This document shows, piece by piece, positions 37,768-56,834 of a stretch of 58,442 bases of DNA (its first letter is position 1; the number at the start of each line of letters is the position of its first letter). The notes below the pieces were generated by a model that was not told the DNA's origin, did no database searches, and saw only the letters and a list, made by a program, of their open reading frames with translations. The DNA is from Dehalococcoidia bacterium (lineage in GTDB: Bacteria > Chloroflexota > Dehalococcoidia > Lucifugimonadales > UBA826): contig JAPYSB010000012.1 in the NCBI GenBank assembly GCA_029936675.1, positions 1 to 58,442 on the forward strand. Direction: 5' to 3'. The position numbers were made by a program, and so were the translations under genes.

Positions 37768-39612
37768 ATGTGCGGAATTATCGGCTACACTGGGCATTCA
37801 CAGGCATTACCCATCCTAATAGATGGGCTATCAAAACTTGAATATCGGGGCTACGACAGCGCTGGGGTATCAGTCTTTAATGAAAACCAAACCCACACGA
37901 CCTATAGATCTGCAGGTAAACTTAGCGAACTTCAAAAGCTAACCGAAACTTCAAAGGCCGACGGGATGTCAGGTATTGGCCATACCCGATGGGCAACCCA
38001 TGGTGAAGCTAATACCGTAAACGCACACCCTCATAGCGACACTTATGGAAACCTATCTGTTGTTCATAATGGGATTGTAGAAAATTACCTGGAATTAAAA
38101 AAAGAGTTGGTCAAAAAAGGGCATATTTTCAATTCTGATACAGATTCGGAAACTATTCCTCATTTGATAGAGCACTATATGAATGACGGTGCCACTTTTG
38201 AAGAAGCAATCGGGATGAGTGTAGGCAGAATCAGAGGAGCGAATGCCGTAGTTGTAATGTGCAACGATCAACCTGAAAAGATAGTAGCGTTTAAAACTGG
38301 CAACGCAGGGGGTCTTATCATTGGATATGGGAAGGATGAAATGTTAGTCGCTAGTGATATCCCGGCGATCCTTAATCATACAAATACTATTTCGCACATG
38401 CGACCAGGGGAACTTGCGATATTGGAACCTAACTCCATCAAATTCAGGGACAACAATGGAAATTCCATCGAAAAAGAAAAGACTGTCGTTGCAAATAACC
38501 CTATCTCTATGGCCAAGGGTGATTACAGGCATTTCATGCTGAAAGAGATATGCGAACAACCTGACGCCATAATCGCCTCATTAATGGGTCGACTGTCTTC
38601 TAATAAAGGCTTATTTAACCTTGCTGATTTTAACCTTAGTGTAGAAGAAATCAAAAAAATTTCAAAAATAACTCTTACAGGAATGGGGACGAGCTTGCAT
38701 GCTGCCATGCTTGCCCGTCTCTGGATGGAACGAATCGCAGGAATACCGGCAGAATGGGATAACTCGTCAGAATTCCGTTATCGAGAACCGCTTCTTGAAA
38801 AAGATTCCCTCTTTATATCCATAAGTCAATCTGGGGAGACAGCTGACACTCTCGCGGCGATGGAAGAGGTTCGAAGAAAAAATATCACCCAAATAACTCT
38901 TTGTAACTACTCAAATACACAAGCTTCCCACATAGCAGATCAAACGCTTCAAATTAGGGCTGGATTAGAAGTCGCGGTTGCGGGAACTAAAACATTTACA
39001 TGCTCCTTGGTAACTCTTTATACACTTGCAATATATTTTGGAGTTCAAAGAAAGCACATCTCCCCTAATCAGGCCGCCAGTCTTACAGAGGAACTTTCCC
39101 GGCTACCAGAAATGATAGGAAGCGTTTTGGTTGATCAAAAACAATACGAGGAACTGGCAAGTAAATATCATACTAGCTCAGATTTTTTGTTTCTTGGGAG
39201 AGGGTACAACTATCCCGTTGCCCTAGAAGGTGCTCTTAAATTAAAGGAAGTCAGCTACATACATGCTGAAGGCTATCCTGCAGGAGAGATGAAACATGGG
39301 CCGATATCACTTATAGACGACAACATGCCGGTAGTCGCATTAATCCCAAAAGACTCTTTATATGAAAAAATGTTGAACACGGTGAATGAGGCAAAAAGTA
39401 GAGGGGCCATAGTCATTGCAATCGCCTCAGAATCAGACATGGAAATCAGCGCTAAAGTAGACCACGTCATAAGAATTCCTGACGTCTCTGATTCACTCTC
39501 CCCTATCGTTGCCACAGTGCCGCTGCAATTGATTGCTTATTATTTTGCTGTAAGAAGAGGATGTGATGTGGACCAGCCGAGGAACTTGGCTAAGTCAGTG
39601 ACTGTGGAGTAG
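37768..39612 (+). CDS. glmS: Glutamine-fructose-6-phosphate aminotransferase
   Basis: A 614-residue amidotransferase making glucosamine-6-phosphate for cell-envelope sugars. Cys2 (MCGIIGYTG) is the glutaminase nucleophile; HTRWATHGEANTVNAHPH and two SIS domains (SGETADTLA, GRGYNYPVALEGALK) follow, ending DQPRNLAKSVTVE. Length is usual. It lies directly behind plsC, so I see no room for a glmS ribozyme. The selenoprotein gene starts four bases after its stop. Confidence 0.97.
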   Translation: MCGIIGYTGHSQALPILIDGLSKLEYRGYDSAGVSVFNENQTHTTYRSAGKLSELQKLTETSKADGMSGIGHTRWATHGEANTVNAHPHSDTYGNLSVVHNGIVENYLELKKELVKKGHIFNSDTDSETIPHLIEHYMNDGATFEEAIGMSVGRIRGANAVVVMCNDQPEKIVAFKTGNAGGLIIGYGKDEMLVASDIPAILNHTNTISHMRPGELAILEPNSIKFRDNNGNSIEKEKTVVANNPISMAKGDYRHFMLKEICEQPDAIIASLMGRLSSNKGLFNLADFNLSVEEIKKISKITLTGMGTSLHAAMLARLWMERIAGIPAEWDNSSEFRYREPLLEKDSLFISISQSGETADTLAAMEEVRRKNITQITLCNYSNTQASHIADQTLQIRAGLEVAVAGTKTFTCSLVTLYTLAIYFGVQRKHISPNQAASLTEELSRLPEMIGSVLVDQKQYEELASKYHTSSDFLFLGRGYNYPVALEGALKLKEVSYIHAEGYPAGEMKHGPISLIDDNMPVVALIPKDSLYEKMLNTVNEAKSRGAIVIAIASESDMEISAKVDHVIRIPDVSDSLSPIVATVPLQLIAYYFAVRRGCDVDQPRNLAKSVTVE

Positions 39613-39616
39613 GTGG

Positions 39617-40144
39617 TTGAATAAATCGTTTTTTTTACCATTATTATTTGTAATCATTGCGCTAGCATGTACCACTGAAGAAAATATCGTGGTACCAAAG
39701 CAATTAAACAGTGTGATAGAAAAGCCTTCTATTGAAAAATTGCCGTATTTTGAACTAACCACCACTGATGGAAAAATAACTTCAGATCAGTTTTTAGTCG
39801 ATAGTAAACCTGAATTCCTGCTTTTTATATCTCCTAATTGAGGAACGTGTATTTCCGAGTTACGGAAATTGGCTAAAACTGACCAAGAACTTTCATCATT
39901 GGCAAATATTTACATTATAGGAATGAATCCCGGTTATACATTTGAGGACCTAAAAGGCATGGCAGCCGGAAACCCAAACTGGATTTATGCCCTGCCAGCT
40001 GATGCTAGCACATTAAATTCAATAAAAGGCTTGAGCCGATCCACAAAAATTCTAGTGGGTGAAGAAAATGTGATTCTCAAAAGGTACAAACTTGGTGATT
40101 GGAAACTTTCTGAATGGATTGAAATATTTCAGAAGGTAGGCTAG
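39617..40144 (+). CDS. Thioredoxin-fold lipoprotein, selenocysteine-containing (U-G-T-C)
   Basis: One frame of 175 codons is interrupted only by TGA at 39839-39841, in LLFISPN-U-GTCISEL. The TGA falls where thioredoxin-fold proteins (TlpA/ResA/AhpC type) carry the first Cys of C-x2-C, giving U75-G-T-C78. A 7-bp hairpin with loop AGTTA starts nine bases after the TGA and fits a bacterial SECIS. The N terminus is a lipoprotein signal (LLFVIIALAC), with C18 for lipidation, so it would act outside the membrane as a thiol/selenol redox protein. The start is TTG with GGAG 7 bases upstream, coupled to glmS. The alternative is a Cys-to-stop pseudogene; the hairpin and the second case in this window argue against it. 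Confidence 0.8.
39851..39869 (+). promoter_or_regulatory. Candidate bacterial SECIS element 1
   Basis: ATTTCCG-AGTTA-CGGAAAT: seven perfect pairs with a five-base loop having G in the second place. Sixteen bases separate the UGA from the loop, at the lower end of the range described for bacterial SECIS elements (about 16-37). The loop equals that of the element at 56132-56148. Confidence 0.7.
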
Positions 40145-55637: not shown

Positions 55638-56834
55638 ATGCCGAAACTGGAAAGACTAAGTGAAGATGTCAGAGATAGGATGCTTAACTTTCCTTGCATT
55701 GAACATGACGACACACCCTGGACTCCAATGTTCAAGCCACTTTCTGAAAGTAACGTTGCTCTCGTGACAACGGCTGGGTTTCATGTCCGAGGTGATAAGC
55801 CCTTTGGCGTTCCCGAAGGAAGAGGCGACACTTCTTACCGGGTGATTCCGAGAGATACCAGCCCAGGGCAGATTGTGCAAAGTCACTGGAGTCTCAGTTT
55901 TGACCGGACCCAAACATACAGAGACATCAACATAACCTTCCCAATGGATCGTTTGGAGGAGTTGGTTGTGCGGGGAAAAATCGGATCTCTGTCTGACAAT
56001 TATTATTCTTATATGGGAGCGTTGAGGGATGTAACTGGGCTGATCGAAAAGACAGGCCCGGAAGTCGCAAAAAGACTAAAAGATGACGGGGTCGACGTCG
56101 TTTTATTGACACCTACATGACCTGCCTGTTCAAACGCAGTTAGCGTTTTAGCCAGAATATTCGAGGAACACGCATTAGTGACAACAGGCGTTGTGCTAAT
56201 TAAAGAACATGCTGAAAGAGTCAAACCTCCTCGAATGCTCGCCGTTCCATTCAACTTCGGCAACACCTTAGGAGAAGCAAATAATCCAGACTATCAACAT
56301 GAGGTGCTTGAAGCCACATTCGCTCTGCTAGATCACAACTCAGGACCGGTATTGCAACAATTTGAAACAGGTCCCATTCCTGATCCGATAGTTCAGGGTT
56401 CTCACGTCATCAACACATCTGCAAGTAAGAGATTTAAAGCCGAAGAAGAAGTTCGATCATTTATAGATTACTACGAAAGGTGGTTGAGTTTGAATCTTGG
56501 CCGTACAGGAGTTGGACTGAGCACTATTCCTTATGGAGATTTTGGAAAGATGGCCAATTTCCTTGAAGGATACATAGAAGGGACTACATCAGATATGCCT
56601 GAAAGACCAACACAGTTTAGTCTTGCACATTTCATTAGATATTGCGTCGATGACTTGAAATCTTTCTGTTTCGAATCCCGAATGGCCCAAAAGCCTAATA
56701 TTACAGTGAATGCTTTGCATGAATGGTTCTGGGTTGAAACATCAGTTGCGAGGTTAATTCTAAGATTGGAGAAAAGAATGGCCAGCGACGATAACGAGGA
56801 GATTAAGGCCGAAGCATACAGCATCGCAAGGTAA
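55638..56834 (+). CDS. GrdB-family selenoprotein (U-P-A-C)
   Basis: One frame of 398 codons is interrupted only by TGA at 56118-56120, in VVLLTPT-U-PACSNAVSVLARIFE. The family (glycine/sarcosine/betaine reductase selenoprotein B and related proteins) carries Sec or Cys at this point, often as U/C-P-x-C, so U161 with C164 is the redox pair. The N-terminal VALVTTAGFHVRGDKPFG, FDRTQTYRDINITFPMDRL and RPPR-like VKPPRMLAVPFNFG segments match relatives. A 6-bp SECIS-like hairpin follows after 17 bases to the loop. Residues about 275-398 are an extra helical domain with HEWFWVETSVARL. No GrdA/GrdC partner is present, so classical glycine reductase is unlikely; it is probably a thiol/selenol oxidoreductase of unknown substrate. 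Confidence 0.85.
56132..56148 (+). promoter_or_regulatory. Candidate bacterial SECIS element 2
   Basis: AAACGC-AGTTA-GCGTTT: six perfect pairs, five-base loop with G second. Seventeen bases separate the UGA from the loop. The loop sequence is identical to that at 39858-39862. Confidence 0.7.

Follow-up and report, generated by a model that had tools for sequence, protein, structure and literature searches.

A candidate lipid-anchored thioredoxin-fold selenoprotein with a U-G-T-C motif in SAR202 bacteria

We examined a window of 58,442 nt, a single whole contig (JAPYSB010000012.1) of a SAR202 (Chloroflexota) MAG of 2.19 Mb that is 96% complete, and found that the gene just downstream of glmS very probably encodes a selenocysteine-containing redox protein of the thioredoxin fold, exported and lipid-anchored on the extracytoplasmic side. 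The prediction draws on its reading frame, on Sec/Cys exchange among homologues, a conserved SECIS element, the Sec machinery of the host, a signal peptide with lipobox, and the fold. SAR202 bacteria are abundant marine organisms. Standard gene calling would cut this gene short or overlook it, and likewise its homologues throughout the order.

The gene and its neighborhood

The frame at 39617-40144 is broken only by the TGA at codon 75, as the initial annotation had described; it contains no other stops and ends in TAG. Its readthrough product has 175 residues, beginning with a signal peptide (lipobox ALAC) that a spacer separates from the thioredoxin-fold domain with U75-G-T-C78. The TTG start aligns with the ATG start of a homologue (L006). 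The lipoprotein signal first noted in this one sequence holds more widely, with Cys18 behind a hydrophobic stretch invariant in 29/29 homologues. Only two joined frames in the window have a single TGA, at least 150 codons and no other ORFs overlying them, this one and 55638-56834. Features of the gene are collected in Table 1.

Table 1. Coordinates of the selenoprotein gene, its parts and its upstream neighbor within the window.
Feature	Position	Strand	Remarks
glmS, upstream neighbor	37768..39612	+	synteny at genus level only
GGAG, putative ribosome-binding site	39606..39609	+	7 nt upstream of TTG start; inferred from sequence
Selenoprotein gene (predicted)	39617..40144	+	175 codons + TAG; TTG start 4 nt past glmS stop
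Lipoprotein signal peptide, lipobox ALAC (predicted)	39617..39670	+	Cys18 = 39668-39670
In-frame TGA = Sec75 (predicted), first residue of U-G-T-C	39839..39841	+	
Cys78, resolving Cys of UxxC	39848..39850	+	invariant in protein alignment
SECIS hairpin	39851..39869	+	stem 39851-39857 / 39863-39869; loop AGTTA 39858-39862
Glu81, 3 residues past Cys78	39857..39859	+	invariant; ResA Glu80 position by alignment
S142-T143-K144 motif, in place of cis-proline loop	40040..40048	+	Lys144 invariant

The coupling to cmk-plsC-glmS that had been suggested for this locus stands within the genus: glmS is upstream in 7/7 other same-genus contigs, and cmk-plsC is retained in all six that reach that far. It does not extend to other genera, where none of 7 loci has glmS, cmk or plsC beside the gene and no partner recurs. 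A functional link to these genes as a general feature was rejected, synteny being limited to the genus.

Homologues and Sec/Cys exchange

Of 60 related genomes searched with P0001, 33 have a relative. Profile A1 matched in 111 of the order's 177 genomes; its weakest matches are probably other TlpA-like paralogues, and almost all of its strong ones have one internal TGA. Forms free of TGA come from G046, three genomes of family f24, G056, and one tandem copy in G188. The codon at position 75 was checked in 42 domains and is TGA in 37 and Cys in 5, and nothing else. The alignment of homologues proposed at the outset thus gave only Sec or Cys at this position, and bore out the claim that the TGA replaces the first Cys of a CxxC, since it aligns with Cys in the TGA-free homologues. 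A tree of the 42 domains has three Sec/Cys changes, and in it one Cys form has as its sister a Sec form from the same family (support 100/99). Besides position 75, the protein alignment has invariant Cys18, Cys78, Glu81, Leu82, Lys144 and Trp167.

Were the TGA a genuine stop, the frame would be a decaying thioredoxin-like gene. The interruption itself fits such a pseudogene, as does the use of TGA as a normal working stop elsewhere, evident from its terminating 7 of the 39 long genes of the window. However, the same codon is TGA in those 37 domains, across many families, and the frame has no further stops. Moreover, 3′ of the TGA dN is 0.065 against a dS of 0.40 among L001-L005, and 0.10 against 0.97 among L006-L008; with dN so far below dS, the downstream part must be translated and under strong purifying selection. 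The hairpin following the TGA also co-varies (see below). We reject the pseudogene reading as refuted by this conservation, leaving it a negligible probability.

Tandem copies of the gene, two or three adjacent, were seen in G148, G149, G151, G168, G020, G057, and the genera g75 and g76 of family f41. Locus L021 on the minus strand of G025 has two thioredoxin domains in one frame, each with its own TGA in UPTC; a single lipoprotein signal precedes both, and the product is probably a two-Sec fusion protein.

Sec machinery of the host

The initial annotation made its case depend on the presence of selA, selB, selC and selD, and the full Sec machinery was found in the same genome: tRNA-Sec with anticodon UCA (65.5 bits), SelA (445 bits), SelB with its wing domain, and SelD (384 bits), whose own gene has one in-frame TGA. 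This machinery also bears on the proposal that a recoded genetic code or a suppressor tRNA puts Trp, or some other standard amino acid, at TGA. Such a code would leave the frame open, yet TGA-free homologues have Cys here and never Trp, the 7 TGA-terminated genes show the codon still in use as a stop, and the machinery for Sec is complete. We consider this proposal, too, scarcely credible, and reject it.

The SECIS hairpin

A perfect 7-bp stem closes a 5-nt AGTTA loop that starts 16 nt past the TGA, and the MFE of the stretch is -8.4 kcal/mol. The published bSECIS model (PMC13188914) allows a loop of 3-9 nt, a stem of 4-16 bp, G in the first two loop positions, a spacing of 16-37 nt and an MFE of at most -7.5; the hairpin falls within all four constraints (loop 5, stem 7, G at loop position 2, spacing 16) and within the MFE limit. 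As a single sequence the fold is unremarkable: 11 of 200 shuffles fold equally well (z -1.76), and 5.8% of all TGAs in the window are followed, at a permitted distance, by a stem of 7 bp or more. What raises the hairpin above chance is its conservation in 27/27 TGA homologues, the compensatory changes in its stem, and its absence from Cys homologues (0/3).

All 27 aligned TGA genes have the hairpin in their own minimum-energy fold, in the same register and with loop AGTTR, whereas it is absent in all three Cys genes folded. Across the alignment 90.9% of stem cells are paired, and double-compensatory cells number 35, where shuffles give 14.3. The pairing and covariation scores were each higher than in any of 500 shuffles; controls with slid partners scored far lower, the signal being lost. 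Concerted stem changes include TTTCCG/CGGAAA, GCTCCG/CGGAGC, GCGCCG/CGGCGC and GCGCTG/CAGCGT. Six of the seven pairs are retained in nearly all sequences. The hairpin as first annotated keeps its 7-bp stem, its AGTTA loop and its 16-base spacing, except that the outermost A-U pair is not conserved, being missing in 14 of 25 distinct sequences. The suggested SECIS check, made here against the published bacterial model, agreed with the annotation, and covariation adds to that agreement.

The coding sequence reflects the hairpin. Codons for Glu81-Leu82 are GAG-TTR in 27/27 TGA genes, even where a gene otherwise favors GAA or CTN; the codon-probability sums ignore shared ancestry and were used qualitatively only. 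The next codon in TGA genes is CGG (25) or CAG (2), matching the stem requirement; in the five Cys genes the residue after Leu82 is Glu, Ala, Gln, Ala and Ala. In a genome-wide scan with SECIS model R1 only the window gene rose above noise, though R1 includes flanking coding sequence and fails to detect other selenoprotein genes. The co-varying consensus GAGTTR should aid in finding more selenoprotein genes in this lineage.

The Sec insertion inferred in the initial annotation is strongly supported, at the level of sequence, by the TGA/Cys alignment, the co-varying SECIS and the machinery. SelB with Sec-tRNA would read UGA75 as Sec under the direction of the hairpin with its AGUUR loop, 16 nt downstream of the codon.

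Fold and possible function

Searches of Pfam and NCBIfam gave weak generic matches only (AhpC-TSA, Redoxin, ResA, DsbE). The window protein scores 14.1 bits against NF053656 (TUGYCR), whose curated cut-off is 100, and NF041054 (WAxxUGC) gave only weak matches (best E 0.023, 2 members). An AlphaFold2 model of the protein has pLDDT 82.8, and the PDB structure closest to it is ResA (Z 15.9, 133 residues, rmsd 2.3). The top PDB match by sequence profile is the pneumococcal lipoprotein Etrx2 (2yp6, 7.5e-18).

With ResA, TlpA and CcmG (cd02966) the window protein shares the fold, the position of the CxxC, a Glu 3 residues past the second Cys, and extracytoplasmic membrane anchoring. It differs from them in having Sec for the first Cys, in the replacement of the cis-proline, in the invariant Lys144, and in a host genome without CcdA/DsbD. 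Pro is found at the cis-proline position in 0/29 alignment rows; the window protein has Ser142 there, and others S, D, A, G or similar. CcdA/DsbD (PF02683) had no match in the host although 10 of 14 control genomes match, an absence that is not final in a 96% complete MAG. VKOR (PF07884) was also searched for in the host genome and not found. Likeness to Etrx1 and Etrx2 lies in a lipid-anchored, surface-exposed, ResA-like thioredoxin fold, but both Etrx proteins rely on Cys and on CcdA, and in Etrx2 the aligned residue is Pro (PMC3914529); the host has no match for CcdA. The missing cis-proline leaves any analogy to ResA, CcmG or Etrx in doubt.

Two known functions come into question for such a protein. 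A ResA/CcmG-type apocytochrome c reductase would accord with ResA as top fold match, with Glu81 at the position of ResA Glu80, which is important in substrate recognition (PMC5909903), and with the cytochrome c assembly proteins in the genome. Replacement of the cis-proline speaks against it: the ResA-like HP0377 with Thr at this position (P156T) is inactive in vivo and stays oxidised with its CcdA partner (PMC5909903). So does the lack of a CcdA/DsbD match, and so do L124 (WCPPC...LPVTF) and L126 (CPPC...YPTTV), canonical TlpA/CcmG-like proteins of the Cys type that the genome encodes at other loci and that retain the cis-proline. Since the cis-proline and CcdA are missing while the host has these canonical proteins, ours is a divergent paralogue and probably not a cytochrome c reductase, a role that we judge improbable. 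The host genome encodes, besides its cytochrome c assembly proteins, several exported CxxC thioredoxin-fold proteins.

The main rival is a peroxidase, in which Sec75 would be peroxidatic and Cys78 resolving. The top weak Pfam matches are AhpC-TSA and Redoxin, peroxiredoxins such as AhpE are close in structure (Z 14.4), and for a peroxidase the lack of cis-proline and CcdA would be less odd. The active-site signature of peroxiredoxins is PxxxTxxC. It is absent here: Pro does not occur at -7 in any row, and most rows have Ser or Ala at -3, while the UxxC with Glu 3 past the second Cys is of the ResA/TlpA type. We regard a peroxidase as rather unlikely.

Our first choice, held by a modest preference, is a surface selenol/thiol reductase, acting on oxidised cell-surface substrates. 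With the cis-proline replaced, the Lys invariant and no CcdA/DsbD found, it would not be an ordinary CcdA-fed reductase. The protein would be exported, lipidated at Cys18 and held on the membrane's outer face, with the Sec75 selenolate and the Cys78 thiol as a redox couple cycling via a selenenylsulfide. Because the genome has neither a CcdA-coupling cis-proline in this protein nor CcdA/DsbD, re-reduction would probably come from a small thiol or another partner. We infer these steps, from selenium insertion in the cell and the selenenylsulfide cycle to substrate and reductant, from the features above; the missing cis-proline and CcdA raise the question of how such proteins are reduced.

Relation to known selenoproteins

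UxxC selenoproteins have been described from marine metagenomes as Trx-like 1, Prx-like 1 and Prx-like 3 (GOS; PMC2398784 Table 2), and UxxC families have been assigned to cd02966 and PF08534 (PMC13188914 Table 1). These GOS families, and the Sargasso 'thiol-disulfide isomerase-like' proteins, resemble the window protein in their UxxC thioredoxin-like fold, bacterial SECIS and marine origin. The texts searched do not contain the word 'lipoprotein'. Part of the SAR202 lineage may already be counted among the published UxxC families. Since UxxC selenoproteins of the thioredoxin fold were already known, this is not a new class. The initial annotation, which knew of no described family of this kind, was thus too broad as regards UxxC Trx- or Prx-like selenoproteins (PMC2398784, PMC13188914), and holds in that neither NCBIfam nor Pfam has a dedicated model for the lineage. 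The literature searched for SAR202 with selenoprotein or selenocysteine yielded no study of SAR202 selenoproteins.

Loss of the cis-proline, the invariant Lys and the consistent lipid anchor distinguish the lineage, a new branch of this known type that occurs across the order. We raise more tentatively a broader view, which we hold to be possible though not the likelier case: that surface selenolipoproteins form a distinct family throughout this order of SAR202-type Chloroflexota, one that has abandoned both the cis-proline and the CcdA/DsbD route, has an invariant Lys beside the former site, and has undergone tandem amplification and a two-Sec fusion. Such a family would amount to a selenium-based redox system outside the cytoplasm, supplied by an electron donor not yet described. 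The window protein itself would place selenium in redox chemistry outside the cell membrane.

Other selenoprotein candidates

The second single-TGA frame of the window (55638-56834, plus strand) is a PrdB/GrdB-like selenoprotein gene, with its one in-frame TGA at 56118-56120 in the motif UPAC. Its product matches TIGR04483 (1.3e-42, below the curated cut-off) and PF07355 (1e-10). A hairpin 17 nt past the TGA has the same AGTTA loop as the 39617-40144 gene.

Elsewhere in the host genome, L125 (G000:C2:3311-3670) is a candidate Prx-like lipoprotein selenoprotein with U-G-I-C (RGHFUGICRQQL). It resembles the window protein in its lipoprotein-like signal, its UxxC and an AGTTR at equal spacing, but is a separate gene with another, Prx-like sequence. 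Its AGTTG lies between complementary CAAC and GTTG, 16 nt past the TGA, though RNAfold favors another fold. A peroxiredoxin gene, L122 (G000:C36:30254-30634), has TGA at the peroxidatic position (TGGU) and is of a known selenoprotein type.
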